IMG/VR virus record: IMGVR_UViG_3300035698_010335 | Coordinates: 1 to 21,106 of that record | Length of the DNA stretch: 21,106 nucleotides | Strand: one strand, 5' to 3' | Source of the DNA: a virus | Part shown: positions 1,105 to 19,249 of the stretch, piece after piece | How positions within the stretch are numbered: position 1 is the first letter of the stretch | Layout of the letters: every line of letters begins with the position of its first letter | The notes under the pieces: model-generated | Databases searched by the model: none | What the model saw: the letters and a program-made list of their open reading frames with translations, nothing else | Told to the model about the DNA's origin: nothing | Program-made: the position numbers and the translations under genes

Positions 1105-1121
1105 GATGCGATTCCTTTCTT

Positions 1122-1134: not shown

Positions 1135-1145
1135 GGTTGGTTGAC

Positions 1146-1225: not shown

Positions 1226-1248
1226 TTCCTGCCTTGCACGAGGCAGTA

Positions 1249-1647: not shown

Positions 1648-1663
1648 GATCCGGTTCCTTTCT

Positions 1664-1678
1664 GCGGCTTGTCGCCGC
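1664..1678 (-). other. short GC hairpin just 5' of a ribosome binding site
   Basis: GCGGC (1664-1668) and GCCGC (1674-1678) form a 5-bp stem with a 5-base loop. On the transcript it immediately precedes AGAAAGGA and the ATG at 1645-1647. It could modulate or protect initiation of the 132-aa gene. Confidence 0.5.
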
Positions 1679-1686
1679 GCTGTCTG

Positions 1687-2298: not shown

Positions 2299-2302
2299 TC
2301 GT

Positions 2303-2479
2303 CTACCCTTTCCGCTTGGTGCCACGCTGACGCGCCCTGATGGCCTCGCCGACGAGCACTTGCACCATGTTCGAGAAGGGACGCTTCTCCACGACCGCCA
2401 GGTCCACCACGATCTGCGCCAACTCGGGATCCGCGATCGAGGCGGTGCGGTAACGGGGTTGCTCGGGTGCCTTGGCCAT
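2303..2479 (-). CDS. small ribbon-helix-helix-like protein
   Basis: This 58-aa protein starts MAKAPEQPRYRTASI. Residues about 10-50 follow a ribbon-helix-helix pattern: a short strand (YRTASI), helix 1 (DPELAQIVVDLAVVEKR), a turn with PFSNM, and helix 2 (VQVLVGEAIRARQ), ending in a basic tail. Such CopG/Arc-type proteins bind operator DNA as dimers, so a regulatory role in the leftward operon is plausible. The ATG at 2477-2479 has AGAAAGGGAC upstream. Its stop lies four bases before the next start. The fold is judged by eye only. Confidence 0.6.
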   Translation of the reverse strand: MAKAPEQPRYRTASIADPELAQIVVDLAVVEKRPFSNMVQVLVGEAIRARQRGTKRKG

Positions 2480-2504
2480 TCGTCGTCCCTTTCTGATTCG
2501 TCGT

Positions 2505-2516
2505 GCGGCAGTCTGA
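2505..2516 (-). repeat. leader repeat AGACTGCCGCAC, copy 1
   Basis: The minus-strand 12-mer AGACTGCCGCAC occurs here and at 2944-2955. Both copies lie about 15-20 bases 5' of an AGAAAGGGAC ribosome site, in the leaders of two successive genes. In copy 2 the repeat starts inside the -10 box of a sigma70-like promoter. Copy 1 has no recognisable -35. Confidence 0.55.
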
Positions 2517-2520
2517 AACC

Positions 2521-2919
2521 TCAGTTGTCGAACCAAAAGACGAAACGCACGTCCTCGATCCCATCAGTGCGCTGCTCCGCAATCGCCTCGAACGGAGAGC
2601 CGAGGAAATAACCGAAGTAGTCACTTGACACAAGCCCTTTCGTTTTCATCCAGGCACAGAGGGCTACGATGTCCACGCGGCCAAGCCAACTCGAGCTATG
2701 CGCGTCGGGCACCCACGACTCGTAATCAATCTGTGTGATCACAGATGAGTCTGAGGGTACGCCGCGTGGGCCGGAGATGGGCGCGATCTCAGCGGTCGTG
2801 GCGCGAACACCAGCCATTTTTGTGAAGAGCTCATACCAGCGAGTAACCGATGGATTGTCGCAGTGTTCCCATCGGTCGTTGATCTTTGCTTCGACGTGCA
2901 GGTGAATATCACAACCCAT
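2521..2919 (-). CDS. conserved 'MGCDIH' phage-family protein
   Basis: This 132-aa protein begins MGCDIHLHVEAKINDRWE, the hallmark start of a widespread phage and prophage family of unknown function. Family features seen further on are a segment with FTKMAGVRA, then SGPRGVPSDSS, then a WVPDAHSSSWLG stretch. The conserved Cys, Asp and His residues near the N-terminus and the DAHS motif suggest a metal-binding or enzymatic pocket, but the activity is not established. Start ATG 2917-2919 is fixed by AGAAAGGGAC upstream and the conserved N-terminus. A sigma70-like promoter (2951-2978) lies about 30 bases upstream. Confidence 0.75.
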   Translation of the reverse strand: MGCDIHLHVEAKINDRWEHCDNPSVTRWYELFTKMAGVRATTAEIAPISGPRGVPSDSSVITQIDYESWVPDAHSSSWLGRVDIVALCAWMKTKGLVSSDYFGYFLGSPFEAIAEQRTDGIEDVRFVFWFDN

Positions 2920-2943
2920 AGGTGTCCCTTTCTTCGATGCGAT

Positions 2944-2955
2944 GTGCGGCAGTCT
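2944..2955 (-). repeat. leader repeat AGACTGCCGCAC, copy 2
   Basis: Second copy of the 12-mer found at 2505-2516, here overlapping the -10 region of the promoter at 2951-2978 and continuing into the presumed transcript start. It could be an operator or a start-site element. Confidence 0.55.
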
Positions 2956-2978
2956 ACCACATCTTATCGGCTTGTCAA
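2951..2978 (-). promoter_or_regulatory. sigma70-like promoter for the MGCDIH-family gene
   Basis: On the minus strand a perfect -35 TTGACA (2973-2978) is followed, after 16 bases, by TAGACT (2951-2956) as -10. The surrounding stretch is markedly AT-rich compared with the rest of the arm. It lies between the RNase H stop (3008) and the next ATG (2919). It would let host RNA polymerase transcribe the left-arm genes. Confidence 0.7.
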
Positions 2979-3007
2979 GAGTAAATCTTGAGAGATTTGT
3001 AAGTTTT

Positions 3008-3454
3008 TTACCGGACGGGTAGGCCCTTGTCCCGCCCCGCGAACAGCGGCGACCCACTGGCCCGCTGGATAGCATCCGCGGCGAGCTCGTGGCAAACCCC
3101 GTTCTCCTCGCCGGGGATGTGCTCCCACCGGATCGAGCGGAAACCCACCCGCAGCATCGCCGCCATGTTGTAGAGCCATCTCAGGTTGTGGGCTTTGCAC
3201 TTGGCCACCCCCTCACCGCATCGCAGCGCCAGCGTTGAGTCACCGCGGACCACGAGATCGCTGACGCCCCGGCTGGAGGCCAGTAGAAGGCCGTAGACCA
3301 TGCCCGCATATTCGGCCTCGTTGCAGGTGGCGGTTCCTATGAAGTGCCCCACGTTGTCCTGTCCGCTCCCGTGGACCAGCAGGCTCACCCCGAAGCTGGA
3401 CGGGCCGGGGTTTCCGTGCGAGCCCCCGTCGAACCACAGATTGCCTTTCATCAT
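3008..3454 (-). CDS. RNase H type I
   Basis: This 148-aa protein has the RNase HI fold. The first strand carries the catalytic Asp in LWFDGGSHGNPGP (D9), then the Glu in CNEAEYAG (E48), then the Asp in VRGDSTLAL (D72), then EHIPGEENGVCHELAADA near the C-terminus. The enzyme cuts RNA in RNA-DNA hybrids, for example primer removal in phage replication. The fourth acidic residue (D134 of the E. coli enzyme, in CDELA) is His here (H122). The ATG at 3452-3454 has AGAAAGGGAC upstream; a second ATG follows after one codon. The gene is the first on the leftward arm after the control region. Confidence 0.88.
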   Translation of the reverse strand: MMKGNLWFDGGSHGNPGPSSFGVSLLVHGSGQDNVGHFIGTATCNEAEYAGMVYGLLLASSRGVSDLVVRGDSTLALRCGEGVAKCKAHNLRWLYNMAAMLRVGFRSIRWEHIPGEENGVCHELAADAIQRASGSPLFAGRDKGLPVR

Positions 3455-5300: not shown

Positions 5301-6331
5301 AAGACCATCCGATCTTATTCTCCGGCCCGATGGTTCGGTCCCTCTTGGATGGCAGAAAATCTCAGACGCGGCGCGTGATAAAAACCCAACCAGATGCCTT
5401 TTACCGCTTGACACCTGACCGGCTTATGGTATGCTATAGCCATGATAACCCTACCGAATGGCACGAAATTGAAACGGATACCGGAGTCTCCCAACGACGA
5501 CTACATGGCGGGCGACGATGGGAAGGTTTACTCTCGGACGCGGTACAAGGGCTTTGGGCGGAAGGACTACGTGGACTGGTATCCGCTCAAAGGATACATC
5601 ACGGCGAAGGGCTACAGGACGATCAGCTTGTCTCACAACAATCGGAAGGTGACGCGGCACATCCATCGTCTGATATGCTCAGCCTTCCACGGCCGCCCGC
5701 CGAAGAAGTCGATGCAGGTGCGGCATCTGGACGGCAATCCGAACAACAACAAGCCGGAGAACCTGCGGTGGGGGACGCGGGAAGAAAACTGGCTGGACCG
5801 GAAGCGTCACGGACGGGGCATCGAGGGAGAGAAGCATCCGATGTCAAAACTGACGGATGCCGAAGCGGAACATCTGCGGTGGGCGATCTCGACGGGCCTG
5901 TGCAGCCAACGCCACGCGGCCCGAATGCTTGGGATGTCGCAGGCGGGCGTCTATCACGTTGTCCATTTTCGGAAGGGCAACGCCTCTGGGTGAGGGAGGC
6001 TTTTCGTGGCCCGATCGGCGGCTATGTATACCGCGCTGACAATGACCCGCAATTTGAGGGCTGTAGATGGAAGCCCTCGATCCACATGCCCAAGTGGGCC
6101 GCTCGCATCTGGCTGGAAGTGACGGGCGTTCGCGTCGAGCGCGTGCAGGACATCAGCGAGGAAGATGCGATTGCGGAGGGTATCCCACGGGGCGCTGTCC
6201 AGTATTGCGGACACGCGATCCGGTTGTTTCGTGACCTGTGGGATTCCATCAACGCCAAGCGCGGCTACCCGTGGGAAGTCAACCCCTGGGTCTGGGTAGT
6301 GGAGTTCAAGCGAACGGAGACAATGACATGA
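5297..6331 (+). CDS. ASCH-domain phage protein, interrupted by a nested HNH gene
   Basis: The N-terminus (MKDHPILFSGPMVRSLLDGR, then KSQTRRVIKTQPD) and the C-terminal part, from RCPFSEGQRLWVREAF through KPSIHMPKWAARIWLEVTGV, DISEEDAIAEGI and WDSINAKRGYPW to NPWVWVVEFKR, match a common phage ASCH-family protein that normally has no large gap between these parts. Here about 170 extra codons lie between them, and the HNH gene 5442-5993 is read from the same DNA in another frame. The frame stays open through the insert, so a 344-aa product is formally possible, but its middle is Gly/Arg/Ser-rich and not protein-like. ASCH domains are PUA-like folds thought to bind RNA or modified nucleotides. It is translationally coupled to the leader peptide and to DUF5131. 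Confidence 0.7.
   Translation: MKDHPILFSGPMVRSLLDGRKSQTRRVIKTQPDAFYRLTPDRLMVCYSHDNPTEWHEIETDTGVSQRRLHGGRRWEGLLSDAVQGLWAEGLRGLVSAQRIHHGEGLQDDQLVSQQSEGDAAHPSSDMLSLPRPPAEEVDAGAASGRQSEQQQAGEPAVGDAGRKLAGPEASRTGHRGREASDVKTDGCRSGTSAVGDLDGPVQPTPRGPNAWDVAGGRLSRCPFSEGQRLWVREAFRGPIGGYVYRADNDPQFEGCRWKPSIHMPKWAARIWLEVTGVRVERVQDISEEDAIAEGIPRGAVQYCGHAIRLFRDLWDSINAKRGYPWEVNPWVWVVEFKRTETMT
5408..5435 (+). promoter_or_regulatory. sigma70-like promoter in front of the nested HNH gene
   Basis: Perfect -35 TTGACA (5408-5413), a 16-base spacer ending in an extended -10 TGG, and -10 TATGCT (5430-5435). The predicted start point (about 5442) coincides with the ATG of the HNH gene, so the transcript would be leaderless. 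The element lies inside the ASCH coding sequence. Confidence 0.6.
5442..5993 (+). CDS. HNH homing-type endonuclease (NUMOD4-HNH-HTH)
   Basis: Three parts are seen in 183 residues. The first is an N-terminal NUMOD4-like segment (KRIPESPNDDYMAGDDGKVYS, about 10-30). The second is an HNH core with HIHRLICSAFHG (about 74-85) and VRHLDGNPNNNKPENLRWGT (about 95-114). The third is a C-terminal DNA-binding helix-turn-helix (SKLTDAEAEHLRWAISTG, then SQRHAARMLGMSQAGVYHV). Such enzymes nick or cut specific DNA and spread their own gene. It lies in a different frame inside the ASCH gene, with its 3' end overlapping conserved ASCH codons. No SD precedes the ATG; a promoter at 5408-5435 would give a leaderless message. 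Base composition is visibly less GC-rich than its neighbours, consistent with transfer. Confidence 0.85.
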   Translation: MITLPNGTKLKRIPESPNDDYMAGDDGKVYSRTRYKGFGRKDYVDWYPLKGYITAKGYRTISLSHNNRKVTRHIHRLICSAFHGRPPKKSMQVRHLDGNPNNNKPENLRWGTREENWLDRKRHGRGIEGEKHPMSKLTDAEAEHLRWAISTGLCSQRHAARMLGMSQAGVYHVVHFRKGNASG

Positions 6332-7284
6332 GCCGAACACACATCGAATGGGTACAGGGCACCGGACGCGTCGGCGAGACGTGGAACCCGTATATCGGAT
6401 GCAGGCCGATCAGCGAGGGCTGCGAGAACTGCTGGGCCCGACGCGAGGAGGATGGCCGCTTCCGGCATCTGGCGCGATGCGTCCCGGTGATCGAGGGCAC
6501 GGGCGGAAAGCCCGGGGCCTGTGGATGGATCCTCGAGCCGCCGGGGGCTTACTTCGCACGCGGGCCGGTCTTTCAGGGCGAGGAGGTCCTCACGGCGCCG
6601 CTGCGGTGGAAAAAGCCGCGCGTGGCGTTCGTGTGCGCGCGGAGCGACCTGTTCCACGCCGACATCAGCGACGACGACCGCGACCGCATCTGGACCGTGA
6701 TGGCGCTGTGCCCGGATCACATCTTCATTGTGCTGACGAAGCGCGCCGAGCGGATGTGCGCGTATTTGGACGAGCTCCGAGGCAGTCGGCGCATAGGCCG
6801 CGCGTTTGGTTTCCTCTACGACCCAGGCAGGAATCTCTCGAATCAGGTTCTCGATGCAGTGCCAACTGCTCGGTTCGCGCTGGAGGGTATCCACAGGGGC
6901 GAGCCGCTGCCCAACGTCGTGCTGATGGTCACTGCGGAGAATCAGGCCCGGGCGGATGAGCGGATCCCGCGGCTGCTGGAAACGCCCGCCGCCTGCCGCG
7001 GCGTGTCCATCGAGCCCATGCTCGGCCCGGTGGACGCGACGCCGTGGCTCGACCGCCTCGACTGGGTCATCGTTGGCGGAGAGAGCGGCCCCGGCGCGCG
7101 GCGCATGCACCCCGTCTGGGTTGGCGCTGTGGTCGATCAATCCGCCTTCGCCGACATCGCCTTCTTCTTCAAGCAGTGGGGGCGCTTCGACGAGAACGGC
7201 CGACCTGTCGGGAAGAAAAAGGCCGGGCGTACGCTCGACGGACGAAACCACGACGGACTGCCGGCACTGCTGGCCAAGGAATAA
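6328..7284 (+). CDS. DUF5131 protein (phage Gp37/Gp68 family), three-Cys motif
   Basis: This 318-aa protein has the family's N-terminal TWNPYIGCRPISEGCENCWA with Cys25, Cys32 and Cys35. It is followed by PLRWKKPRVAFVCARSDLFH, VLTKRAERM, PNVVLMVTAENQ, RGVSIEPMLGPVD, DWVIVGGESGPGARRMHP and FFFKQWG, all in the expected order. The family is linked to radical-SAM-like chemistry by its Cys triad and is named as the partner of TcmP in other genomes. Its substrate is unknown. Here it overlaps the ASCH gene as ATGA and no TcmP is adjacent. The length is normal for the family and all visible motifs are intact. Confidence 0.88.
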   Translation: MSRTHIEWVQGTGRVGETWNPYIGCRPISEGCENCWARREEDGRFRHLARCVPVIEGTGGKPGACGWILEPPGAYFARGPVFQGEEVLTAPLRWKKPRVAFVCARSDLFHADISDDDRDRIWTVMALCPDHIFIVLTKRAERMCAYLDELRGSRRIGRAFGFLYDPGRNLSNQVLDAVPTARFALEGIHRGEPLPNVVLMVTAENQARADERIPRLLETPAACRGVSIEPMLGPVDATPWLDRLDWVIVGGESGPGARRMHPVWVGAVVDQSAFADIAFFFKQWGRFDENGRPVGKKKAGRTLDGRNHDGLPALLAKE

Positions 7285-7287
7285 CTT

Positions 7288-9726
7288 ATGCCGCAGCGCG
7301 TCATGGATGACAGCCTCTACACCGACGAGGAGGCCCTGGAACGCGAGGCCCAGTCCGAGGGCATCGCACGCTACCGGATGCTGGTGGACAAGGCCGTCGA
7401 GCGGGGCGACGGGCCGCAACTCAAGGCCGTCGAACGACTGATCCTCCACTGGTTCGAGCCCCTGCGCCGCCTCATCGCCGCCGAGAAGCGGTCCATCCGA
7501 AAGGGCATCCCCGGCGTGGGGCGGATGCACGCCGGCCCGGTCATCCTCCAGTTCAACTCCTCGCACCTGGCGCTGGCCACGCTCCACGAGACGATGAACC
7601 TGATGCTCACCGAACCCGATGGCGTGACCCCCGTGCGGCTGTCAATGGCCATCGCCCGGGCCCTGAACGCCCAAGCCAACTACAAAGAGATGCGCGGCAA
7701 GCACAACGCCGCGAAGCGGAAGTGGAAAAGGGCGGGCTGCCCGGGCCGGTTCTACGAGGAGACCTGGGATGCACTGGTCCACACCGACAGGCGACGGATC
7801 ACGGTCGAGAACACCAACCGCGTTGCTGCCCGCTTCATGCCCGACTCCCGCTGGTCCCCGCAGGCCCAGGCCGCCGTCGGCGGAACGCTGCTGCATCTCT
7901 TGGATCGGGTCGCCACCGTCGAGGACTACGACAAGCCGCGGGAGCCCGCGTTCTACAAGTTCAAGCGGATCATCACCAAGCATGCGGCCTGGATATGGAA
8001 GCTCTCCTACACCGCACAGAAGGTCATCCACGACGGCCACGAGTTCCGCAAGCTGCTGAATCCCCGCTACCTGCCGATGGTTGTGCCGCCTCTGCAGTGG
8101 ACGCCGAAGGACATCGGGGGGTATCTCATCATCCCGACGCACCTGTACAAGCGGACGGAACGCCACGAGATCGGAGCCGAGGAAAACCCCGTGCTGCTCG
8201 AAGCCGTCAACGCGATCAACTCGACGCCCTGGCGAATCAACCGCTTCGTGTTCGACATCGTGCAGGAGCTCGGCGCCGCCGGCGGCAACATCGCGGGCAT
8301 CCCGCAACTTCACCCGCTGGAGTTCCCGGACCGGCCGAAGGAATGGTACAAGGGCAGTCCCGAACGGGCCAATTGGAAGAAGAAGGCGAGCTACATCATC
8401 CGCCGCAACCGCGAGATCGCCAGCGGCGCCAAGAGTTTCAGCATCCGCCAGTACATCGCAGAGCGGATGGAGGGCTACGGGCGGTTCTGGTTCCCGCACC
8501 AGCTCGACTTCCGGTGCCGGATCTACCCGGTCCCCGTGCTGTTCCACCAGCAGGGCGACGACGCGAGCCGTGGGATGCTCGAGTTCGCCGATCCCGTCGA
8601 TGCGTCCGGGCCCGATGCCAAGCGATGGCTGCGGATTCACATGGCGAACCGCTGCGGGCAGGACAAGCTCACCTTCGACGAGCGGATCGAGTGGGTCGAC
8701 GACAACATGGAGATTTTTGCTGGGTGGATCGAGAAACCCCTTGAAAACACTGGATGGATGGAGGTCGACGACCCCTTCCAGTCTCTCGCCGCCGCGCAGG
8801 CCCTTCTGGACCCCGAGGCCGCGGCCCACCTTCCCACGCAGATCGACGGGACCAACAACGCCCTGCAGCACTACGCGGCCATGCTGCGCTGCGAGGACGC
8901 CGCGGCAAAGGTCAACGTCATCCCCACGGATCGGCCACACGACTTCTACGCGGACGTGGCCGGCCGAACGGAGGGCTTGGTGGGTCGAGACGCCGACGCC
9001 GCCAAGAAGCTCGCACAGAGCCTTGAGGGCTTCATCACACGCAAGCTCGTCAAGCATACGGCGATGACGAACTACTACGGCGTCACCCGCGTCGGGGCCC
9101 GCCGGCAGATGTACGCGAATCTCCAGGAGGCGGGATTCCTTCTCGATGAACTCTACCCGGCGTCGAAGTACATGGCCCGGGTGGTCATGGAGGCGACCGC
9201 CCACGAATGCCCGAGCGTGGACGCGGCGCTGCAGTGGATCAAGAACTGCACCCGCAAGATCGTCCGCAAGGGGAACATCCTCGCATGGCGGAACCCGTTG
9301 GGCGTGACGATCGAGCAGCCCTACCGGAACCAGCGGTCCATCCGTGTCTACACGCCCTTTGGAAGCCTGAGCCTTGGCTGGCAGGACAAGACGTGCCCTC
9401 CGGCCAACATCAAGCAGACGAACGCCAGCGCCCCGAACTTCGTGCATTCGGTGGACTCGGCCCATCTGCTCTGCGTGGCGCTGGCCTGTCACGACGAGGG
9501 CATCAGATTCGGCGGGATCCACGACGCGATCATGGCTCATGCGGCCAACATGAGCCGCACCGCCCAGATCGTCCGCGATCAATTCTGCTACATCCACGAG
9601 ACCCCGCTGCTGGACCGCCTCGCCGCCGACTGGAACGAGCGCTACGGCATCAAGCTCCCTCCCCCGCCGCCGACTGGGAATCTGGACGTTGGCCGAGCCG
9701 CGAAGTCGGAATACCTGTTTCAATGA
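7288..9726 (+). CDS. T7-type single-subunit DNA-directed RNA polymerase
   Basis: This 812-aa enzyme transcribes phage promoters without host subunits. Catalytic Asp520 lies in QIDGTNNALQHYAAMLR. Arg585, Lys589 and Tyr597 are in RKLVKHTAMTNYYG with the same spacing as T7 R627/K631/Y639. The second catalytic Asp is D745 in FGGIHDAIMAHAAN, preceded by SAPNFVHSVDSAHL (714-727). DFRCRIYPV (407-415) and the region around 665-695 correspond to the template-binding and promoter-specificity parts. The C-terminus SEYLFQ plays the part of the T7 'foot'. It is shorter than T7 (883 aa) and close to phiKMV-type enzymes. An AAGGA site precedes ATG 7288. It lies immediately upstream of the virion genes. Confidence 0.97.
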   Translation: MPQRVMDDSLYTDEEALEREAQSEGIARYRMLVDKAVERGDGPQLKAVERLILHWFEPLRRLIAAEKRSIRKGIPGVGRMHAGPVILQFNSSHLALATLHETMNLMLTEPDGVTPVRLSMAIARALNAQANYKEMRGKHNAAKRKWKRAGCPGRFYEETWDALVHTDRRRITVENTNRVAARFMPDSRWSPQAQAAVGGTLLHLLDRVATVEDYDKPREPAFYKFKRIITKHAAWIWKLSYTAQKVIHDGHEFRKLLNPRYLPMVVPPLQWTPKDIGGYLIIPTHLYKRTERHEIGAEENPVLLEAVNAINSTPWRINRFVFDIVQELGAAGGNIAGIPQLHPLEFPDRPKEWYKGSPERANWKKKASYIIRRNREIASGAKSFSIRQYIAERMEGYGRFWFPHQLDFRCRIYPVPVLFHQQGDDASRGMLEFADPVDASGPDAKRWLRIHMANRCGQDKLTFDERIEWVDDNMEIFAGWIEKPLENTGWMEVDDPFQSLAAAQALLDPEAAAHLPTQIDGTNNALQHYAAMLRCEDAAAKVNVIPTDRPHDFYADVAGRTEGLVGRDADAAKKLAQSLEGFITRKLVKHTAMTNYYGVTRVGARRQMYANLQEAGFLLDELYPASKYMARVVMEATAHECPSVDAALQWIKNCTRKIVRKGNILAWRNPLGVTIEQPYRNQRSIRVYTPFGSLSLGWQDKTCPPANIKQTNASAPNFVHSVDSAHLLCVALACHDEGIRFGGIHDAIMAHAANMSRTAQIVRDQFCYIHETPLLDRLAADWNERYGIKLPPPPPTGNLDVGRAAKSEYLFQ

Positions 9727-10673: not shown

Positions 10674-12233
10674 ATGGCAGATCCTACCCTCAAAGACGGG
10701 TTCGACGCGGCCGACGCCGAAAGGACAACCTTTCTGGAGCGGGCCCGCGACTACGCCTCGCTGACGATCGCGGACGTACTTCCGCCGCATAACCAGCAGG
10801 CCAATGAGGAACTTCCCAACTCCTGGCGCAACATCGGCGGCGTCGGCGTGGAGAATATGACCGGCCGGCTGATGACCAGCCTGTTCCCCGTGGGGGTCCC
10901 GTGGTTCGAGTTCGCCGCCACGGCCGAGCTGCGCGCTTCCCAGGAGCTTTCCGCCGAGCAGAAGAACGAGTGGATCGCGCTGCTCTACGCCCGGGAACTC
11001 GTGGTCGCGTCCAAGATGGAGGCCAGCAACTACCGCCTGGCGAACCGCGCGGCCCTCGAGTCGCTGATGATCTGCGGCAACACCCTGACGCGGCTGGCGC
11101 CCGACTACGATTTGCGGTACTACCGCTTCGACAACTGGGTCTGCAAGCGGTCCGGCTCCGGCACGCTGCTGTGGACCATCACGCGGGAAAAGAAGCACGC
11201 AATGGAGTTCGAGGACGATCTTCGACAGCGTGCAAAGCTCAAACCGGACGAGGAATACGCGCTCTACACCAAATGCGAGCGTGTCGGCGGCGTGGGCAAC
11301 TACCGATGGCGCGTCCGCCAGGAAGTCAATGAGCTCGTGTTCTTCGACAACGCCAGCGAGCCATACCCGCTGAACCCCTACAACTGCGCGACCTATCGCC
11401 TGTGCCCGGGCGAGAACTACGCCCGAGGATTCATCGCGACACGCTTCCCGGACATCCAGAGCGTCAACGAACTCTGGAAGGCGCTGATCTTCGGCATGGC
11501 CAACGCGGCAAAGATGGTCCCGGTCTTGGACCCCACCGAGCCCAACGTCCGCAAGACGGACCTGACGAAAGCCAACGGCCAGCCGATCTCCGGCCGCGTA
11601 GTCGGAGGGCAGGTGCAGGGCATCGCCTTCCTGCAGACCAACAAGACGGCCGACTTCGGCATCGCCTTCCAGGGCGCGCAGGCCCTGGAGCAAGCACTCG
11701 GCCAGGATATGCTCCTCAAGGCCCGGAGCATCCCCAGTGGCGACCGAGTGACCGCTACGGCCGTCATGGAGATCACACGCGAGCTCGAGGGGGCTCTGGG
11801 CGGGCCCTACGCCCACATCTCCGATGAACTGCAGAAGCCGCTGGTCGAGGGCTTCGTCCACCAACTCGAAGTCGACCTTGTGATCCCACCGCTCAGTGAC
11901 GAGGCCCGCAAGAAGGCCATGCAGGTCGCGGTACTCACCGGCCCGGCGGCGTTGAGCCGACAACTGGAACTCGACAAGATGCTGTCGGCCCTCCAGATGA
12001 TCTCGGCCATTCCCGGGGCGCTGGAGAGTCTGAATCTCGACGTCGTGGTGGACCGCATCTTCCAATATCAGGGCGTGGACACCGCTGGGCTCAAAAAGAC
12101 GCCGGAGCAAGTCAACGCCGAACTCCAGGCCCGCGCCGCGGCCACGCTCCAAGAGGAGGCCGCGAAACAGGCCGTCAAGACCATCGGGACGCTCGTCGAG
12201 CAGCGTGGCGCGGCGGGTGCCCCGGCAGCGTAG
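10674..12233 (+). CDS. portal protein (head-tail connector, T7 gp8-like)
   Basis: The 519-aa length is close to T7 gp8 (536). The N-terminal region carries ERARDYASLTIADVLPP, then NSWRNIGGVGVENMTGRLMT and SLFPVGVPWFEF, characteristic of the T7-type head-to-tail connector. Middle regions include LMICGNTLTRL and NPYNCATYRLCPGENYARGF. Near the C-terminus are SGDRVTATAVMEITRELEGA and LGGPYAHISDELQKPLVEGF. The dodecameric ring forms the DNA entry channel at the head vertex and binds the terminase and tail. The start is one base after the preceding stop and has no strong SD, so it is probably coupled. Confidence 0.95.
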   Translation: MADPTLKDGFDAADAERTTFLERARDYASLTIADVLPPHNQQANEELPNSWRNIGGVGVENMTGRLMTSLFPVGVPWFEFAATAELRASQELSAEQKNEWIALLYARELVVASKMEASNYRLANRAALESLMICGNTLTRLAPDYDLRYYRFDNWVCKRSGSGTLLWTITREKKHAMEFEDDLRQRAKLKPDEEYALYTKCERVGGVGNYRWRVRQEVNELVFFDNASEPYPLNPYNCATYRLCPGENYARGFIATRFPDIQSVNELWKALIFGMANAAKMVPVLDPTEPNVRKTDLTKANGQPISGRVVGGQVQGIAFLQTNKTADFGIAFQGAQALEQALGQDMLLKARSIPSGDRVTATAVMEITRELEGALGGPYAHISDELQKPLVEGFVHQLEVDLVIPPLSDEARKKAMQVAVLTGPAALSRQLELDKMLSALQMISAIPGALESLNLDVVVDRIFQYQGVDTAGLKKTPEQVNAELQARAAATLQEEAAKQAVKTIGTLVEQRGAAGAPAA

Positions 12234-12254: not shown

Positions 12255-13034
12255 ATGGCGGAACCAGCCCCGAACGCAGACCCCAAGGGAGGCGATCCCA
12301 ATGTCAAAGGCAAAGAAGGCGAAGAAGGCTTCAAGCTCCCCGAAGGCTTCCCCGAAAAGTTCAACTCCGACACCCCCTCAGAAGCCGTCGGGAAGCTCCT
12401 CGGCAGCTACCGAGACCTCGAAGCCAAGCAGTCCCGAGCCAATGAAGGCATCCAGATACCCAAAGATTCCCCGCTCGCCGACCCGAAGGCGGATTTCAAC
12501 GCCCTCCTAGCCGCGATCGGAACGACTTGGGAGGAAATCGCCGCGCAGGTCAGCGAAACCGGCGATCTGACCGAGGAGGTCTACGTAGGCTTCGAGAAGA
12601 TGGGACTGTCCCGTGGCATTGTCGGCGACATGGTTCCCCGCGTGGCGCTGGCGCAGCAGATGGCTGTTGATAATTCGCGCCAAGCCGTTGTTGAATACGC
12701 CGGGGGCGAGGACAAGCTCCAGACGCTTCTTGACTTCGCCAAGGGCTTGCCGCAGAACCTCAAAGATAAACTGAACACGGACCTAGCCAGTCCGACCACG
12801 GCCGTCAGCGCACTCATGGTCATCAAGGGCCACTACGATCAGGCGGTCAAGGCCGGCACGCAGCAGGCCTTGCAGGAGGGCGGCCCCGCCGATAGCGGGA
12901 CGAAGCCCTACAGCACGCAGACCGAGTACCTGGCCGACCGCCGCGATCCGAAGTACAAGACCGACCCCGCGTTCCGCAGCCAGGTGGACACCCGGGCCGT
13001 CGGATCCGACATTCAGAACCTTCCGCTGCACTAG
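12255..13034 (+). CDS. capsid assembly scaffolding protein (T7 gp9-like)
   Basis: The 259-aa protein is acidic and highly helical. Its N-terminus is disordered (AEPAPNADPKGGDPNVKGKE), followed by FKLPEGFPEKF, LLGSYRDLEAKQS, long helices, and the terminal DRRDPKYKTDPAFRSQVDTR found in T7-type scaffolds. It directs major capsid protein into procapsids and leaves before maturation. GAGGA precedes the ATG. It sits between portal and capsid as in T7. A GC hairpin follows its stop. Confidence 0.92.
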   Translation: MAEPAPNADPKGGDPNVKGKEGEEGFKLPEGFPEKFNSDTPSEAVGKLLGSYRDLEAKQSRANEGIQIPKDSPLADPKADFNALLAAIGTTWEEIAAQVSETGDLTEEVYVGFEKMGLSRGIVGDMVPRVALAQQMAVDNSRQAVVEYAGGEDKLQTLLDFAKGLPQNLKDKLNTDLASPTTAVSALMVIKGHYDQAVKAGTQQALQEGGPADSGTKPYSTQTEYLADRRDPKYKTDPAFRSQVDTRAVGSDIQNLPLH

Positions 13035-13045
13035 CCGGTTCCTTG

Positions 13046-13073
13046 GGCGGGTGGGCGCGTCGCCCCCCGCCTT
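13046..13073 (+). terminator. GC-rich hairpin between scaffold and capsid
   Basis: GGCGGG (13046-13051) pairs with CCCGCC (13066-13071), extended after a one-base bulge by GGGCG/CGCCC with a 3-base loop. Only three T residues follow, so termination would be partial. It lies 12 bases after the scaffold stop. Confidence 0.45.
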
Positions 13074-13142
13074 TGCCACGACGCATCCCAAGCCTCACCG
13101 AACCGACGGACAATCCCTTTCGGACCCGCAGGTTGGCGAGAG

Positions 13143-13190
13143 AACTCGGACCATGCGAGTTTCCGTTTAACCGTAGTTACAGAAAGGGAT
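13143..13190 (+). promoter_or_regulatory. capsid mRNA leader: hairpin plus strong ribosome site
   Basis: AACTCG (13143-13148) and CGAGTT (13156-13161) form a hairpin with a 7-base loop. An unpaired A/T-rich stretch and the SD AGAAAGGGA (13181-13189) follow, five bases before the capsid ATG. A 5' stabilising hairpin plus an open, strong SD suits a highly expressed capsid gene. No phage promoter consensus could be confirmed. Confidence 0.45.
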
Positions 13191-13194
13191 TATC

Positions 13195-14211
13195 ATGGCA
13201 GACGCAGTTCTACACCGAACCCTACAGGAGTACGGAACGGGCGATGAGGTCGCCCTCGCGCTGACGCAATACGGCGGCACCGTGCTCCAGAGCTTCTACG
13301 ACGCGGCGACCATCGTGCGCCACGTCTGGAAGCACCCGATCGTCGGCGGCCGGTCGTTCCAATTCCCGGCCACCGCCAAGGCGACTTCCGAGGAACTGAC
13401 CGAAGGCCAGGTCCGCGTGGGCGCCAACCAGCCCGAACTCGAAGAGCGCCTGGTCACGCTGAACACCAAGCAGATCATCAGCGACCACTACGAGGGCGAG
13501 CTCGACTCGTTCATCCGCCACTTCGACGTCCGAATGGCCACGGCCCGCGCCGACGGCGAGGCGTGCGTGGCGGATGTGGAGAAGGAACTGTTCGCCGCAC
13601 TGGCCCTGGGCGCCCGAGCGTCCGACGTGGGCTCCAGCGACGACACCTTCTACGGCGGCAAGCAGGTCACCGGCACCAACGACGACCTGGGCAACGAGTA
13701 CCCGCGCAGCCTCCAGGGCAGTCTGACCCTGCAGGACGACCTCGCCGAGATCGCCGTCTACTTCGACGAGCGGAACTGCCCGGATGGCGGCCGCATTGCA
13801 TTCCTGTCGCCGTACCTGACGGATGTTCTGCTGCAGGACAAGACCCTGACCAGCCGCGACTACGCCGATGTCAACGGGCTCATCACCCGAAGGATGGTCG
13901 AGGTTCAGGGGTTCATGGTCGAAAAGACCAACCGCCTGCGGCACACGTCCACCGCTTCGGCGACGTGCTGGCTCGGCAATATGTCGAGCTACCGGCAGAG
14001 CGCCTACCAGGGCGACTTCCGCAAGACGGTCGCCCTGTGCATCGGCGACATGGAAGCGGTCGGCCAGATCACGGCCGGCGGCGACATCCGAACGTTCGGT
14101 CCGACGTGGATCGACAACGCCCATTCGTGGTACTACGGTGCCAAGACGCTGCACGGCGCCAAGTACCTCCGCGCCGAGGCGTGCGGCGAGATCATCCTCG
14201 GCTCCAGCTAA
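13195..14211 (+). CDS. major capsid protein (T7 gp10-like, HK97 fold)
   Basis: This 338-aa protein matches T7-type major capsid proteins. It starts with MADAVLHRTLQEYGTGDEVA, then has YDAATIVRHVWKHPIVGGRS, NTKQIISDHYEGELDSF (E-loop and spine-helix region), VYFDERNCPDGGRIAFLSPY, DYADVNGLITRRMVEVQGFM, and ends in GAKYLRAEACGEIILGSS. T7 gp10A is 345 aa, so the size fits. It assembles the icosahedral head. The ribosome site is one of the best in the window and strong hairpins flank the gene. There is no sign of the frameshift product seen in T7. Confidence 0.95.
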   Translation: MADAVLHRTLQEYGTGDEVALALTQYGGTVLQSFYDAATIVRHVWKHPIVGGRSFQFPATAKATSEELTEGQVRVGANQPELEERLVTLNTKQIISDHYEGELDSFIRHFDVRMATARADGEACVADVEKELFAALALGARASDVGSSDDTFYGGKQVTGTNDDLGNEYPRSLQGSLTLQDDLAEIAVYFDERNCPDGGRIAFLSPYLTDVLLQDKTLTSRDYADVNGLITRRMVEVQGFMVEKTNRLRHTSTASATCWLGNMSSYRQSAYQGDFRKTVALCIGDMEAVGQITAGGDIRTFGPTWIDNAHSWYYGAKTLHGAKYLRAEACGEIILGSS

Positions 14212-14226
14212 GACTCAGGGAGCACC

Positions 14227-14261
14227 GGGCGGGTGGGGTTTCGGTCCTTCCCCACCCGCCC
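14227..14261 (+). terminator. strong hairpin after the capsid gene
   Basis: A perfect 12-bp stem of GGGCGGGTGGGG (14227-14238) with CCCCACCCGCCC (14250-14261) encloses an 11-base loop, 16 bases after the capsid stop. The T content after the stem is low (AAGCTCTTTGG). The position equals that of the T7 terminator after gene 10, but its efficiency cannot be judged from sequence. Confidence 0.55.
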
Positions 14262-14288: not shown

Positions 14289-14486
14289 ATGGCCCACTCG
14301 ACAACCGCACTGGCGACGAAGCACCCGAACTATGCGTCCAAGGACGCCATGATTCGGTCGATTCGCCAGCACATCCACCCCAACTGCCCACAGGCCGTCG
14401 AGATTCTGCTGCGCATCGCGCATTCGGACCTCAACCTGTGGACATCGGACAAGAGCACCGTGACGCCGACGACCTTTGGACTGTGA
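14289..14486 (+). CDS. small hypothetical protein, 65 aa
   Basis: This begins MAHSTTALATKHPNYASKDA and has a helical middle (MIRSIRQHIHPNCPQAVEILLRIAHSD) rich in His and Ile, ending in NLWTSDKSTVTPTTFGL. The ATG at 14289 follows GGGAG. It sits between the capsid hairpin and the next structural gene. The product is not recognised. Its small size and position suggest a capsid accessory or assembly factor, but there is no motif to confirm it. Confidence 0.6.
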   Translation: MAHSTTALATKHPNYASKDAMIRSIRQHIHPNCPQAVEILLRIAHSDLNLWTSDKSTVTPTTFGL

Positions 14487-14535
14487 GCCGAAGGCGTCGT
14501 CGTCCATTCACCATCGAGAGACATAGGAGACTACC

Positions 14536-15096
14536 ATGCCTCGACCCAGCGTACTCAATGCCGTCGGTTCCGTCCCCACGGCCGCCACGGCCTACGTCCA
14601 GGCGACGGAGCTCGGCACCGGCAACCTTCGCCGCGTCATCCTGGACATCGTTGCGCTGCCGATCCCCACGGTGGATTACACCACGGACGGCAACCAGGGC
14701 GGCGTCCAGATCTACGACTTCCCGAAGGGATACCTGCACATCCTGTCCGGCGTGATGAAGCTGGACACCCTCACCGTCGATGGGGCCGGCCTGATGAACG
14801 ATCAGGTCCTCGACATCGGCGTCGGGTCGGCTGTGCCGGCCACGAACGTCGGGGTGCTCGGCGGGACGGCCGAGAACATCATCAACAAGGATGACATCAC
14901 CATGTCCGCCGCCGTGACGGCGACGGACCAACTCGTCGCCGAAGTCGCCGGTGGAGGGCTGGATGGCAGCACCACCGCCATCAACGCCTTCCTGAACGTG
15001 GCCGCCGAGGCTGCGACGGCGGAGGGCGACGGCGTATGCACGGTCACCGGCAAGATCGAGATCGTCTACCTGAACCTCGGCTTCATCGACGACTGA
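14536..15096 (+). CDS. putative virion structural protein, 186 aa
   Basis: The protein starts MPRPSVLNAVGSVPTAATAY and is rich in Ala, Gly, Thr and Val with alternating strands (RRVILDIVALPIP, GVQIYDFPKGYLHILSG, CTVTGKIEIVYLNLGFIDD). That composition is typical of phage decoration or head-associated beta proteins. GGAGA precedes the ATG. Its place directly after the capsid gene supports a head decoration role. No enzymatic motif is visible and the family is not identified with certainty. Confidence 0.65.
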   Translation: MPRPSVLNAVGSVPTAATAYVQATELGTGNLRRVILDIVALPIPTVDYTTDGNQGGVQIYDFPKGYLHILSGVMKLDTLTVDGAGLMNDQVLDIGVGSAVPATNVGVLGGTAENIINKDDITMSAAVTATDQLVAEVAGGGLDGSTTAINAFLNVAAEAATAEGDGVCTVTGKIEIVYLNLGFIDD

Positions 15097-15100
15097 GCCG

Positions 15101-15922
15101 ATGTTTGACAGGGTTCTTGTAGTCAACCTGGACCGGCGGCCTGACCGGCTCGAAGCGTTCAATGAGCGTTTCGGCCGGTCGGGCTGGCCGTTCCTGACAC
15201 CGGAACGTGTCCGAGCCGTCGATGCCACGAACATGGGCAAGCCCAAGTGGTTTCGGCAGGCTCTCGGCGCGTGGGCCTGCTCGCAGACGTACATCCGCAT
15301 TTTCGAGGACGCGATGCAGGATGGCATAGACAGTCTTTTCGTTTTCGAGGACGATGCGCTGTTCTGCAACGACTTTGCGGACAGGCTGGACGACTTCACC
15401 GAGGAGCTACCCGACGATTGGGATGCGATCTACCTCGGCGGGATTCTTCGCGGCTTCAAGGACAACCCGCCCATCCGGCTCGGCAAGTCGTGTCACCGCA
15501 TCCCTCAGATCACCGGCACCTATGCAACGGCCTACCGGCTGGGGTTCCTCAAGCGGTTCTACGAGTGGTACTGGAGCCTCCCGCGGAACGACCTTTTGGG
15601 TGTCTTTGATGCTTCTTTGGCGAGCTTCCAGGCGCACAGGGACTGCAACATCTACGGGCCGATGCCCTGGCTGTGCGGCCACGCCAGCGGAACGAGCGAC
15701 ATCAATGATCGCTCCTACACACGGGACCACTTCTTCAACTACGACGGAAAGACGGTGGAGTGTCAGGCCGACATCGGGGCCATCGTCAACGGGCGAATCG
15801 TCCGTCCCCTGATGAAGATCAAGGTCGTCGGCGGCAAGCATCCCGGCGAGGTACGCTTCGGCAAGGAACCGACAGCACAAGAACTGATTGGAGTTGCACA
15901 TGGCGCGGAAGCCGAGGAGTGA
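15101..15922 (+). CDS. family-25-like glycosyltransferase
   Basis: This 273-aa protein has the start FDRVLVVNLDRRPDRLEAF and the acidic metal-binding strand SLFVFEDDALFCND (EDD at 83-85), with AIYLGGI and GTYATAYRLGFLKRFY further on. These match glycosyltransferase family 25 enzymes, which transfer sugars to LPS or proteins using a divalent metal. The gene lies among virion genes, so it may glycosylate a capsid, decoration or tail protein, or modify host surface sugars. The ATG is four bases after the previous stop and lacks a strong SD, so it is probably coupled. Its 3' end overlaps the next gene by 23 bases. Confidence 0.8.
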   Translation: MFDRVLVVNLDRRPDRLEAFNERFGRSGWPFLTPERVRAVDATNMGKPKWFRQALGAWACSQTYIRIFEDAMQDGIDSLFVFEDDALFCNDFADRLDDFTEELPDDWDAIYLGGILRGFKDNPPIRLGKSCHRIPQITGTYATAYRLGFLKRFYEWYWSLPRNDLLGVFDASLASFQAHRDCNIYGPMPWLCGHASGTSDINDRSYTRDHFFNYDGKTVECQADIGAIVNGRIVRPLMKIKVVGGKHPGEVRFGKEPTAQELIGVAHGAEAEE

Positions 15923-16175
15923 CGAGGAGAGCATCTACCAGGTCGTCGACCGATGCCAACGGAAGCGATGGCAGATCTTCGGCGTGCTTGCGATGATCTC
16001 CGTCGCCATCGCCGGGGGTATGCTGACCCTACTTCTGACCATCCGCGGTGACGTATCCTACACCAAGGGCCGCGTCGATACGCTGGTGGAGATGGAACGG
16101 AAACCCGAGAACGCAGTCGACTATCCACACGGCCCGGACTTCGGCGAAGAACTGGCCGCAGAGAGCGAGGACTGA
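15900..16175 (+). CDS. one-helix membrane protein, 91 aa
   Basis: The sequence has a basic N-terminus (MARKPRSDEESIYQVVDRCQ), one membrane segment (about residues 27-49, IFGVLAMISVAIAGGMLTLL) and a charged, helical outer part (RGDVSYTKGRVDTLVEMERK) with an acidic tail. ATG 15900 is preferred over 15888 because a GGAG site lies upstream. It overlaps the glycosyltransferase gene. Membrane helix plus coiled segment resembles an inner-membrane spanin or holin, though the location inside virion genes is unusual for these. Anchoring of the neighbouring glycosyltransferase at the membrane is another possibility. Confidence 0.6.
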   Translation: MARKPRSDEESIYQVVDRCQRKRWQIFGVLAMISVAIAGGMLTLLLTIRGDVSYTKGRVDTLVEMERKPENAVDYPHGPDFGEELAAESED

Positions 16176-16178
16176 ACC

Positions 16179-16616
16179 ATGCCTGACGCGGTACAGGGCT
16201 TCAACGACACGGACAAGACGACCGATCGGCTGGCGACGCAGACCACGCTGGCGGCCATTCTCGACGCCGTAGGCGGCGATGCGGACCTCACCTACGCCCA
16301 CGTCAACATCAACCAGAGCGGAGCCAACTACGTCGTGCTCGGCGCGGTGGCGACGGGCAAGGTCTGGCGCCTGCACGAGTACACCGTGCAGTCCGAGGGC
16401 GGAACCGCCACGATCCAGATCGGGTATGCCAACGACGACGCGGGCACGAGCTTCGTGGCCGTCCGCACGCACTACGCCGCCAGCGCGGCCGATGGCGTGG
16501 CCTGTGGGCCCGACAACTCGAAGGAGCCCTACGTCGTGACGCCTGCCGGAAAGTCGCTGCTGCTGTACTGCACGGCGCAGGACGTCCGCGGCGGCGCCAA
16601 GGTCAGTTCCGAGTAG
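16179..16616 (+). CDS. putative virion structural protein, 145 aa
   Basis: The N-terminus (MPDAVQGFNDTDKTTDRLAT, then QTTLAAILDAVGG) is helical and could be an attachment segment. The rest consists of beta strands (YVVLGAVATGKVWRLHEYTV, GTATIQIGYANDDAGTSFVA, SLLLYCTAQDVRGGAKVSSE), a jelly-roll-like pattern found in phage appendage proteins. GAGGA precedes the ATG, three bases after the previous stop. It is probably a head or tail decoration component. The function is inferred only from fold pattern and context. Confidence 0.6.
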   Translation: MPDAVQGFNDTDKTTDRLATQTTLAAILDAVGGDADLTYAHVNINQSGANYVVLGAVATGKVWRLHEYTVQSEGGTATIQIGYANDDAGTSFVAVRTHYAASAADGVACGPDNSKEPYVVTPAGKSLLLYCTAQDVRGGAKVSSE

Positions 16617-16633
16617 GGATAGGAAGGTCACTC

Positions 16634-17338
16634 ATGGCACAGCCAGTAATCGAGACGCTTCCGTTCACGATCTGGAACGACAACGGCTCCTTTCCCGGGA
16701 GCGAATGGAATCTGTCCGAGGCGAACGCCCCGACGAGCACCATGACCTACGCCGCCGCTGCCGCCAAGACGGGCCGCTTCGGTATCCGCTGCACCCTGGG
16801 CGGTGCCGACGTGACCTTCGTATTTCGGAGGTATACCTATGTGCCGGATGTGGGCGGCTCGATCTACCTCGGGGCGTGGGTGACGCCGACGACCTACCCG
16901 GCCGTTGCCGGGCAGCACGTCATCCGCCTGGGGAGCGACACGCCAGTCAAGGGCCACGTTGCCCTGATCGACGCCGGTAGCGGCCAGATGCAGGGCTACT
17001 ACATGGACAACGCCGGTTCGGGCAGCACCTTTGGCAGCGCAGTCAACATGACCGAAGGCACGGCCTATTGGGTTGCCATGCGGATCACGCGCGGCGACGG
17101 CGACGGCTCGGTCGAGTGGTGGCTCAACGGCGTGTCCCAGGCCAGCCAGGGCAGCCTCGACAACGACGCGGATTGGGGCAACGATCACCATATCTGGCTC
17201 GGGGCCTTCCAAGACCCCAAGAGCGGTTCCGTGTTCGACTTCGACAACATCATCCTGCACAGCAACCCCGTCATCATCGACCCGGCTCACGCGCCCGTCC
17301 CGGGTCCGCGAAGCCGGCTCTGCGGCGCGGGGAGGTAG
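16634..17338 (+). CDS. lectin-like (LamG/concanavalin-type) virion protein, 234 aa
   Basis: The protein has a beta-sandwich pattern like LamG/ConA-like domains: SIYLGAWVTPTTYPA, HVIRLGSDTPVKGHVALID, AYWVAMRITRGDGDGSVEWW, NGVSQASQGSLDNDADWGND, HHIWLGAFQDPKSGSVFDFD and NIILHSN, followed by a short Pro-rich tail. Such domains bind sugars or mediate protein contacts and are frequent in phage adhesins or decorations. GGAAGG precedes the ATG. It resembles the protein at 17702-18427 in organisation, suggesting two related surface proteins. There is no enzymatic site. Confidence 0.65.
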   Translation: MAQPVIETLPFTIWNDNGSFPGSEWNLSEANAPTSTMTYAAAAAKTGRFGIRCTLGGADVTFVFRRYTYVPDVGGSIYLGAWVTPTTYPAVAGQHVIRLGSDTPVKGHVALIDAGSGQMQGYYMDNAGSGSTFGSAVNMTEGTAYWVAMRITRGDGDGSVEWWLNGVSQASQGSLDNDADWGNDHHIWLGAFQDPKSGSVFDFDNIILHSNPVIIDPAHAPVPGPRSRLCGAGR

Positions 17339-17342
17339 GCTT

Positions 17343-17705
17343 ATGTCAATTCTCCGCACGGTCGCCGATGCGGTCACGGGCGCGGCGAGATTTGTTGCCG
17401 GAGCCCTCACGGGCTCGCTTGCGATTTCGGAGGTTACGCCGCGCGCGGAGCGGATCGCGGTCAGGCATCTTGTCGATGGTCGCGCGCCCGTCGTGCAGAC
17501 AAGTCCGGGCTCGAAACGGCACAGCTTCGTGATGGACGTGCCGGGCAAGGGTGCTGTGACGGTAAGGTTTTCGTCCCGTGTTCCGTATGACCGTCGTGTG
17601 CTACACCTTCGCCGCGTGGTCGAGCATCTTTTATCGTTGCCCACGGAGAAGGAGATCGAGGCAGAGGTTGCGGCGGAGCGCACGGCAGGGACGGTGATTG
17701 CATGA
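17343..17705 (+). CDS. hypothetical protein, 120 aa
   Basis: It begins MSILRTVADAVTGAARFVAG, an Ala/Gly-rich amphipathic segment that could contact membrane or capsid. The middle contains VDGRAPVVQTSPGSKRHSFV and GAVTVRFSSRVPYDRR; the end is helical (LLSLPTEKEIEAEVAAERTA). GGGGAGGT precedes the ATG. The stop overlaps the next start as ATGA. Base composition in this and the next gene is visibly less GC-rich than in the portal or capsid genes. It is not recognised; the coupling to a lectin-like gene suggests a joint role. Confidence 0.6.
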   Translation: MSILRTVADAVTGAARFVAGALTGSLAISEVTPRAERIAVRHLVDGRAPVVQTSPGSKRHSFVMDVPGKGAVTVRFSSRVPYDRRVLHLRRVVEHLLSLPTEKEIEAEVAAERTAGTVIA

Positions 17706-18427
17706 CCTTGTACGCACACCTTACCACGCCCCACGGCACTAACCTTCTCAAAAGCGACGTGCCAGCCGGTGACTACGATCTCGTTACGATCACGAATCCG
17801 GCCACCACCCTGACTGCCGAGGTTGCGGCGGCGTACAACGGCGTGAGTGCCTACGGAATCGAGACTGACACCGACAGCTACCATGAAGCGTGGGCCACGT
17901 CGGAGGTCACTGTCGTTCCCCCGGCTGCCGGCGCGGCGATCTATGTTGGTTTCGGCATGAACATTTTCGACGACACGGCATCCGATCTGCGCCAACTTGG
18001 GGTGAAGGTGGACACCTTCGCAGACCCCGGTGATGTGGTCCTGCGGCGTAGAACTGCCATTCCGAGAACCGACGCTTATCTGGTCGATGATGCCGGGGCC
18101 AACTTTTCACTCGCCGGTCTGACGCAGAATGTAGGGACATGGTACTGGATGATCTACAAGATGGTTCGTGCCAGTGCTCCTGGGCAGTACGACGGCGAGT
18201 TCCATCTGTATCAGAACAACGCGAACGAGGGTTCGCCCGATGTGTCCAAGGTCAACTGGCGGAATAACTTGTTCATGGCCCCGAACCAATACGATCTCCA
18301 TGTTGGAGTGATGTTTGCGTCGGATGAAACAGTTTGGGTTGATGAGATAAAGGTCGCTACCACGTTTGCCGAAGTGTTGGCGCCTAGCGGCGCCCGCAAC
18401 AGGCTCCCCCTTCTTGGAGTAGGATAG
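17702..18427 (+). CDS. second lectin-like virion protein, 241 aa
   Basis: The beta-rich protein contains AAIYVGFGMNIFDD, DLRQLGVKVDTFADPGDVVL, NVGTWYWMIYKMVRASAPGQ, YDGEFHLYQNNANEGSPD, DLHVGVMFASDETVWVDEIK and a short end ARNRLPLLGVG. The order of strands (uptake of WYWMIYKM, then a gap, then a strand pair with VDEIKVA) parallels the 16634-17338 protein (AYWVAMRIT, FDFDNIILHS), and both end in a short basic tail. A concanavalin-like jelly roll is likely. Start ATGA overlaps the preceding stop. A paralogue by divergence, or a second independent acquisition, are both possible. Confidence 0.6.
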   Translation: MTLYAHLTTPHGTNLLKSDVPAGDYDLVTITNPATTLTAEVAAAYNGVSAYGIETDTDSYHEAWATSEVTVVPPAAGAAIYVGFGMNIFDDTASDLRQLGVKVDTFADPGDVVLRRRTAIPRTDAYLVDDAGANFSLAGLTQNVGTWYWMIYKMVRASAPGQYDGEFHLYQNNANEGSPDVSKVNWRNNLFMAPNQYDLHVGVMFASDETVWVDEIKVATTFAEVLAPSGARNRLPLLGVG

Positions 18428-18433
18428 GAACTC

Positions 18434-19249
18434 ATGACCAAACTCGAAGCCGTGAATGAGATGATCCGTGGCCTCGGCCTCGCGGCCGTGGCGTCCATCG
18501 CCAGCGGGATCGGCCTCGACGCCAAGACGTACCTCGAACGCTGGACCATCAAGATAGTTACCGAGGGCTGGCATATCAACACCGAGAACGAGGTCGAACT
18601 CGAAGCGGCCGACATCGCCTTCACCTTTACCGGATCGCCCAGCGGCACCTTCACCTACGACGAGACCCTGACGGGCACAACGAGCTCGGCCACCGCAACC
18701 TACAAGGGCGAGATCACCACGGCCGCCGGGACTATCGTGTACGCGGTCGTGCTCACCGGCACCTTCACCGCCTTGGGTGAGACGATCACGGGTGGCACGT
18801 CCACGACCGAGCGCGCCGCCGCCGTACCCGATGCCGCCACCGACGACACGTTCATCTTCGTCGACCCGGATATGCTGCACGCCGATCCGACCAACAACGG
18901 CACCTACCCCGACGTGACCCTGCGGAAGTGCGAGGAAGGGGCCCAGCAGCGGTTCTACGACCGCGACGACAACACCTACGCATTCAGCAGTTCCGTCAAG
19001 GTCACGCAGATCCGGGACATGGACTTCCTGGTGTTGCCGGATTGTATGCAGGAGCTCATCGCCGTGGAGTCCATGATCGACTACACGCAGAAGGTGAAAC
19101 TGCCCGTCCCCCAGGACGCCCCGAAGAGGCTGGCCCGCGCCCGCATGAACGCCAGCCAGGACGACGATGACCGACGCGACCTGAATCTCCAGAACTCGTC
19201 CTTCTTCCGCAACGTCGCCGGAATCGGCAGCGTCCCCCGGAGGTATTGA
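18434..19249 (+). CDS. tail tubular protein A (T7 gp11-like) with an inserted domain
   Basis: The core matches T7 gp11. It starts TKLEAVNEMIRGLGLAAVAS with ERWTIKIVTEGWHINTENEV, resumes at FIFVDPDMLHADP, and continues through RFYDRDDNTYAFSSSVKVTQ, DFLVLPDCMQELI and ARARMNASQDDDDRRDLNLQ. Gp11 forms the ring below the portal and joins the nozzle protein gp12. Length is 271 aa against 196 in T7. The excess is almost exactly residues about 61-137, a Thr/Gly-rich beta insert with two similar motifs (SGTFTYDETLTGTTSSATAT and TGTFTALGETITGGTS). AGGA precedes the ATG. Confidence 0.93.
   Translation: MTKLEAVNEMIRGLGLAAVASIASGIGLDAKTYLERWTIKIVTEGWHINTENEVELEAADIAFTFTGSPSGTFTYDETLTGTTSSATATYKGEITTAAGTIVYAVVLTGTFTALGETITGGTSTTERAAAVPDAATDDTFIFVDPDMLHADPTNNGTYPDVTLRKCEEGAQQRFYDRDDNTYAFSSSVKVTQIRDMDFLVLPDCMQELIAVESMIDYTQKVKLPVPQDAPKRLARARMNASQDDDDRRDLNLQNSSFFRNVAGIGSVPRRY

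Follow-up and report, generated by a model that had tools for sequence, protein, structure and literature searches.

Cement or decoration proteins are known from short-tailed and other phages, among them Pam1, KHP30 and GP4 (PMC9698820); in T7 and the cyanophage P-SCSP1u they are absent (PMC10575957). Glycosylation of the tailed-phage virion has been described in mycobacteriophages, where it has been linked to antibody recognition (PMC12363180); capsid glycosylation there reportedly requires the glycosyltransferases Che8 gp110 and Corndog gp38 (PMC12363180, PMC11256854), and Maravista, which like Che8 belongs to cluster F1, has its glycosyltransferase genes close to the 3′ genome end (PMC11256854). 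We describe a locus at which a decoration-type gene is followed by a glycosyltransferase gene in the head block of an uncultured, deep-branching T7-like (Autographiviridae-type) phage. The stretch analysed, referred to below as the window, is the whole IMG/VR virus record IMGVR_UViG_3300035698_010335 (21,106 bp), and the locus consists of eight open, tightly packed reading frames (ORFs), genes A to H (positions 14,289–18,427), with the gene for the major capsid protein (MCP) on the left and the tail-tube gene on the right, just as an earlier description made from the letters of the window (the sequence-only reading) had stated.

Taken at the level of genes, the locus suggests that some phages may sugar-coat their own heads. 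In the reading that we favour, and to which we give about even chances as a whole, the interval behind the capsid gene would be an accessory site typical of the lineage, with B as its stable element; B probably forms a beta-sandwich oligomer on the surface of the MCP shell, and in this phage the site would additionally have acquired a GT25 glycosyltransferase, C, behind B. We infer that C is most likely produced late, alongside the structural proteins, and transfers sugar onto side chains in the decoration protein or the capsid, such that the heads of the progeny would display glycans.

Gene B (14,536–15,096, plus strand; 186 amino acids) matches phrog_11997 (E = 2e-9), a PHROG annotated as being of unknown function. 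A search with an alignment of B and one phage homologue found homologues at 38 IMG/VR loci, and at each of the 11 loci tested the large gene upstream of B encodes a major head protein, across seven PHROG families, the match at L108 being marginal; one small gene stands between the MCP gene and B in L108, L109 and L124. Three members of the clade to which the window belongs have contigs that span the site (L100, L112 and L274), and in each of them B lies right behind the MCP gene; the contig of a further member, L010, ends just after the MCP gene. The AlphaFold2 model of B, built from 25 sequences, is a confident beta-sandwich (pLDDT 80.6, pTM 0.81), for which the fold matches in the PDB are weak and of several kinds (the cement proteins of Pam1 and KHP30/40, viral jelly rolls and the lectin domain of BC2L-C); no sequence match of B to any solved structure was found. 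Its codon adaptation, 0.743, resembles that of the core genes. That B is a head-associated protein is highly probable, and because its family sits behind major head proteins at all the loci tested, it is likely to be a component of the particle surface. We conclude from these comparisons that B is the putative resident head-decoration protein of the window's lineage, with a predicted beta-sandwich fold, and this suggests a class of function for B as well as for its homologues in viruses, 38 at the least. The sequence-only reading spoke of decoration-like proteins in the plural; the label is well supported for B, and for B only. Gene E was considered as a paralogue of B and rejected after comparison. 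At another locus, L121, the B-type decoration gene is present as a tandem duplicate (6807–7481 and 7484–7960).

Gene C (15,101–15,922, plus strand; 273 amino acids) begins 4 bp behind B. Its residues 4–114 match PF01755 (E = 5.1e-8; 33.4 bits against a curated cut-off of 24), and the EDD motif is intact, with E83, D84 and D85 invariant among seven aligned relatives. A seven-sequence profile of C, compared with solved structures, recovered procollagen galactosyltransferase 1 (COLGALT1; 1.6e-14), mimivirus R655 (9.5e-10) and a bacterial GT25 protein (1.5e-4). These matches confirm, on homology, that C is a divergent GT25 glycosyltransferase, and the earlier label for it stands. Relatives of C in IMG/VR number 114, of which the best 80 were retained, with a search profile made of C and the copy in L126; the best-scoring of them are located in head modules, where the identities of MCP, head-tail adaptor and Hc1 genes were taken from PHROGs. 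The order is MCP, small protein, GT25 and head-tail adaptor in L131, L132 and L133; MCP, a gap of 0.5 kb, GT25 and Hc1 in L136; MCP, small protein, adaptor and GT25 in L138; and, in the search seed L126, B homologue, GT25, a scaffold-like gene and MCP. The small proteins that precede the glycosyltransferase are of several types among which mutual similarity was not detected: B in the window and L126, phrog_5707 in L138, and a weak match to phrog_28483 in L131. Those of L132 and L133 are 61% identical to each other, and proteins of this type were rejected as B homologues after comparison. Since GT25 relatives of C recur behind decoration-like genes in head modules, the glycan display put forward in the sequence-only reading is plausible.

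Several observations weigh against the proposal that C glycosylates the head. Both copies in the profile used to find relatives of C come from head modules, which biases the sample towards that lineage. Other GT25 relatives lie near tail genes (L134, L142, L151 and L155), near a DnaB-type helicase (L154) or near a methyltransferase (L143), so a head position is no rule for GT25, and the glycosyltransferase tree does not settle where C belongs within the family. Beyond the window, B and a GT25 gene share a contig only in L126 (the identical contig is L157) among the viral loci fetched, and a general rule linking the two was rejected on this count; a scan of the B-containing records with PF01755 gave no match and is uninformative, as it also missed the L126 enzyme, which had been found with C directly. 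The codon adaptation of C (0.57) is weaker than that of B (0.74), so the two need not have travelled together. None of the matches between the fold of B and those of cement proteins is significant by itself, none having an E-value below 0.001. We offer only tentatively, as somewhat less probable than its opposite, the wider idea that a GT25 gene related to collagen galactosyltransferases and the decoration gene directly in front of it would form a horizontally spread unit that glycosylates the heads of unrelated tailed phages, many of them probably infecting Planctomycetota.

The left border of the interval is an MCP gene of T7 type (13,195–14,211, plus strand; phrog_267, E = 5.1e-29), whose product aligns with those of LUZ100, RHEph01 and other T7-like phages. 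Directly 3′ of it and before the start of the cassette lies a strong hairpin (14,227–14,261, plus strand; 12-bp stem), the segment 14,205–14,285 having a folding z-score of −4.42 against shuffled sequences. Its position is that of Tphi in T7, and we grade it as a candidate terminator only, because it has no good T-run. The right border is the gene for tail tubular protein A (18,434–19,249, plus strand; PF17212, 1.7e-15; phrog_446, 3.7e-19). In alignment this protein carries an insertion of about 80 amino acids, beta-repeat-like, after residue ~55, which other T7-like homologues lack; in L112, a member of the window's clade, the homologue (12,920–13,381) has an insertion at the same position.

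The distance from MCP gene to tail-tube gene is 4.2 kb in the window. Among 51 other T7-like loci in which both ORFs were found, it is no more than ~700 bp in 44 and between 1.2 and 3.3 kb in the remaining seven. In L112 it is ~5.0 kb, and in L100 no tail-tube ORF was seen up to the end of the contig, 3.6 kb beyond the MCP gene; a large interval may thus be the rule in the window's own clade. What fills the site differs from phage to phage. In RHEph01 and TRX32-1 (Paadamvirus) it spans ~2 kb and holds a small protein and a protein of ~540 amino acids, the latter in RHEph01 a lysophospholipase L1-like esterase (phrog_8480, 6e-171), and no homologue of B or of GT25 was detected at the site in either phage. 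L072 has a tail-fibre-type protein there (phrog_24754), L022 large ORFs and L013 one, without family matches; by eye, L038 has an HNH-like ORF and L026 and L044 have small basic ORFs. L100 and L112 carry B and additional proteins, in some of which a GDS-like motif was noted by eye, and L112 has a protein of 661 amino acids with a weak tail-fibre match. The sequence-only reading had proposed comparing gene content at this site in relatives; within the window's clade the comparison leaves B as the sole common gene, the remaining cargo differing among L100, L112 and L274. Because T7-like phages carry such different cargo there, the interval is best described, on gene content, as a lineage-typical accessory site with turnover of its cargo and no fixed single module.

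Gene D (15,900–16,175, plus strand; 91 amino acids), which overlaps C, has one clear transmembrane (TM) segment (residues 30–48, hydropathy maximum 2.26) and a polar C-terminal tail; the segment confirms the earlier label of membrane protein. It gave a sub-threshold match to the phage P21 holin (E = 0.034). Small proteins that look to have one TM segment occur at the same site in L010, L100 and L112, and L100 and L274 also have ORFs whose signal sequences look, by eye, like those of lipoproteins. Because of such ORFs at the site in clade members we favour a lysis role: most likely D is a membrane protein of lysis type, probably rather that than a part of the particle; the lysis idea has no backing from sequence similarity. 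No relatives of genes A (14,289–14,486, plus strand; 65 amino acids), E (16,179–16,616, plus strand; 145 amino acids) or G (17,343–17,705, plus strand; 120 amino acids) were found in family searches, and a match of E to TolB in the PDB was short or weak and judged spurious. Codon adaptation is 0.734 in E, and B, E and the core genes lie between 0.64 and 0.77, the core values being slightly inflated because the core genes set the reference; it is lower in C, G (0.414) and H (0.438), and for this reason C, G and H may have been acquired separately and more recently.

One alternative is that the cassette, once B is set aside, is a loose set of recent acquisitions with no common function at the particle surface, comprising a lysis-type D and unrelated cargo. 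We give this a little less than an even chance: B alone is common to the clade, codon adaptation across the interval runs from 0.41 to 0.74 and D has its TM segment, and yet the paralogy of F and H and the position of C directly after B amount to partial organisation. The particle-surface module of the sequence-only reading survives in part. B is likely a surface component; a single coherent module is not what we find, since B alone is shared across the clade and codon adaptation splits core-like genes (B and E) from foreign-like ones (C, G and H).

Less probable is that the site is a hot spot for morons. Here C could act on host glycans instead, modifying those of the envelope against superinfection or re-adsorption of progeny, in a role unrelated to the particle. 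The name of PF01755 refers to lipopolysaccharide (LPS) biosynthesis and many GT25 enzymes modify envelope glycans; the phage glycosyltransferase PHROGs matched by C are classed under moron and host takeover; not all GT25 relatives are placed in structural modules; the codon use of C is foreign-like; and the cargo of the site in T7-like phages is as varied as an esterase, an HNH-like ORF and a tail-fibre-type protein. A role at the host envelope does not predict, however, that in several phages unrelated to one another the closest relatives of C stand behind an MCP gene and a small protein, and hydropathy analysis found no membrane anchor in C.

Genes F (16,634–17,338, plus strand; 234 amino acids) and H (17,702–18,427, plus strand; 241 amino acids) are paralogous (phmmer 2.8e-8 for F to H and 1.2e-7 for H to F), and G and H share an ATGA overlap. 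Neither F nor H has a Pfam match, F reaching choice_anch_R at 0.0029, below the cut-off; neither matched anything in 50,697 phage records, a search of IMG/VR with a two-row alignment of F and H returned no relatives, and a profile comparison with the LamG protein of L126 was not significant. The model of F is poor (pLDDT 37), and a fold search on such a model can mislead, so its results serve as a hint only: most of the best PDB matches are concanavalin A (ConA)-like and weak (pentraxin, galectins, glucanases). Matches of F and H to TAO kinases in the PDB were short or weak and judged spurious. The two lectin-like proteins of the sequence-only reading are thus tentatively retained at the level of fold, as putative beta-sandwich proteins of ConA-like type with a possible role at the surface or in adhesion; the binding that this reading proposed gains no support for F and H from such a model and such weak matches. 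That they are instead fibre- or tailspike-like adhesins of the tail, making the right half of the cassette part of the adsorption apparatus, seems less likely than not, for while F and H directly precede the tail-tube gene, the weak fold matches of F include the CBA120 tailspike TSP2 and tail-fibre-type proteins occur at the site in L072 and, weakly, L112, the usual position of the tail fibre lies beyond the end of the contig and the matches of F derive from a low-confidence model.

As for the phage itself, the window holds T7-like core genes in the order RNA polymerase (7288–9726), portal (10,674–12,233), scaffold (12,255–13,034), MCP, and tail tubes A and B (B from 19,249 to the window end); portal, MCP and tail tube match T7-type families, which places the phage among the T7-like group, and close kin carry the phrog_414 RNA polymerase (blastp). 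At best, portals from the phage collection share ~32% identity with that of the window. In the portal tree the window, on a long branch, forms one clade with L100, L010, L112 and L274 (support 100/99), separate from the other sampled T7-like sequences, and in the window, L100, L112 and L274 the gene for RNA polymerase comes just before that for the portal. The window's MCP is closer to MCPs of LUZ100/RHEph type than to those of its own portal clade, a mismatch that may point to an exchange of capsids or to rapid divergence. Searches of IMG/VR with single proteins (MCP, RNA polymerase, F and the glycosyltransferase) found no close relatives of the window. A leftward block (883–3454, minus strand) consists of small genes mostly without family matches, among them one for an RNase H-like protein (3008–3454; phrog_531), and an HNH endonuclease gene lies at 5442–5993 (plus strand).

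The host is probably a member of the Planctomycetota, since the closest GT25 relatives of C in the genome collection are mostly from Planctomycetota metagenome-assembled genomes (MAGs), Phycisphaerae included, and since the clade member L274 lies in a genome binned to that phylum. The portal search matched 8 of 392 Planctomycetota genomes; contigs from five were retrieved, L274 being the sole member of the window's clade; it is 10 kb long and could be a phage contig that was co-binned with the genome. Six loci from MAGs labelled Planctomycetota or Nevskiales (L212–L216 and L227) have GT25 relatives with long extensions in related gene neighbourhoods, and these may be prophages, because L215 and L227 have a tape-measure-like gene (by eye) near the GT25 relative.

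How, then, does the locus compare with known systems? The T7-like cyanophage Syn5 carries knob and horn proteins as additions to its head (PMC10575957), as the window's phage may carry additions of its own. B is a predicted beta-sandwich encoded next to the MCP, and its weak, non-significant fold matches take in the cement proteins of Pam1 and KHP30/40. RHEph01 and TRX32-1 carry accessory proteins at the same site, one small and one large, and the large protein of RHEph01 is an esterase, unlike the cargo of the window. COLGALT1 and mimivirus R655 are GT25 proteins like C by profile, C being a single-domain phage protein; R655, formerly annotated as an LPS enzyme, is now considered a putative collagen glycosyltransferase (PMC9546862). 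Virion glycosylation in mycobacteriophages shares with C the use of a phage-encoded glycosyltransferase and serves as a working analogy, with no membership claimed; the enzymes named for it are other glycosyltransferases, and in Maravista their genes are near the 3′ end, in contrast to C, which follows a decoration gene within the head block. B and C would offer a small two-gene system for studying head glycosylation, and environmental phages with the GT25 pairing raise the question of what role a sugar coat has outside animals. Accessory head genes and virion glycosylation are both of kinds already known; the new part is the recurrent pairing of a GT25 gene behind a decoration-type gene, which would be a genomic signature for predicting glycosylated heads.

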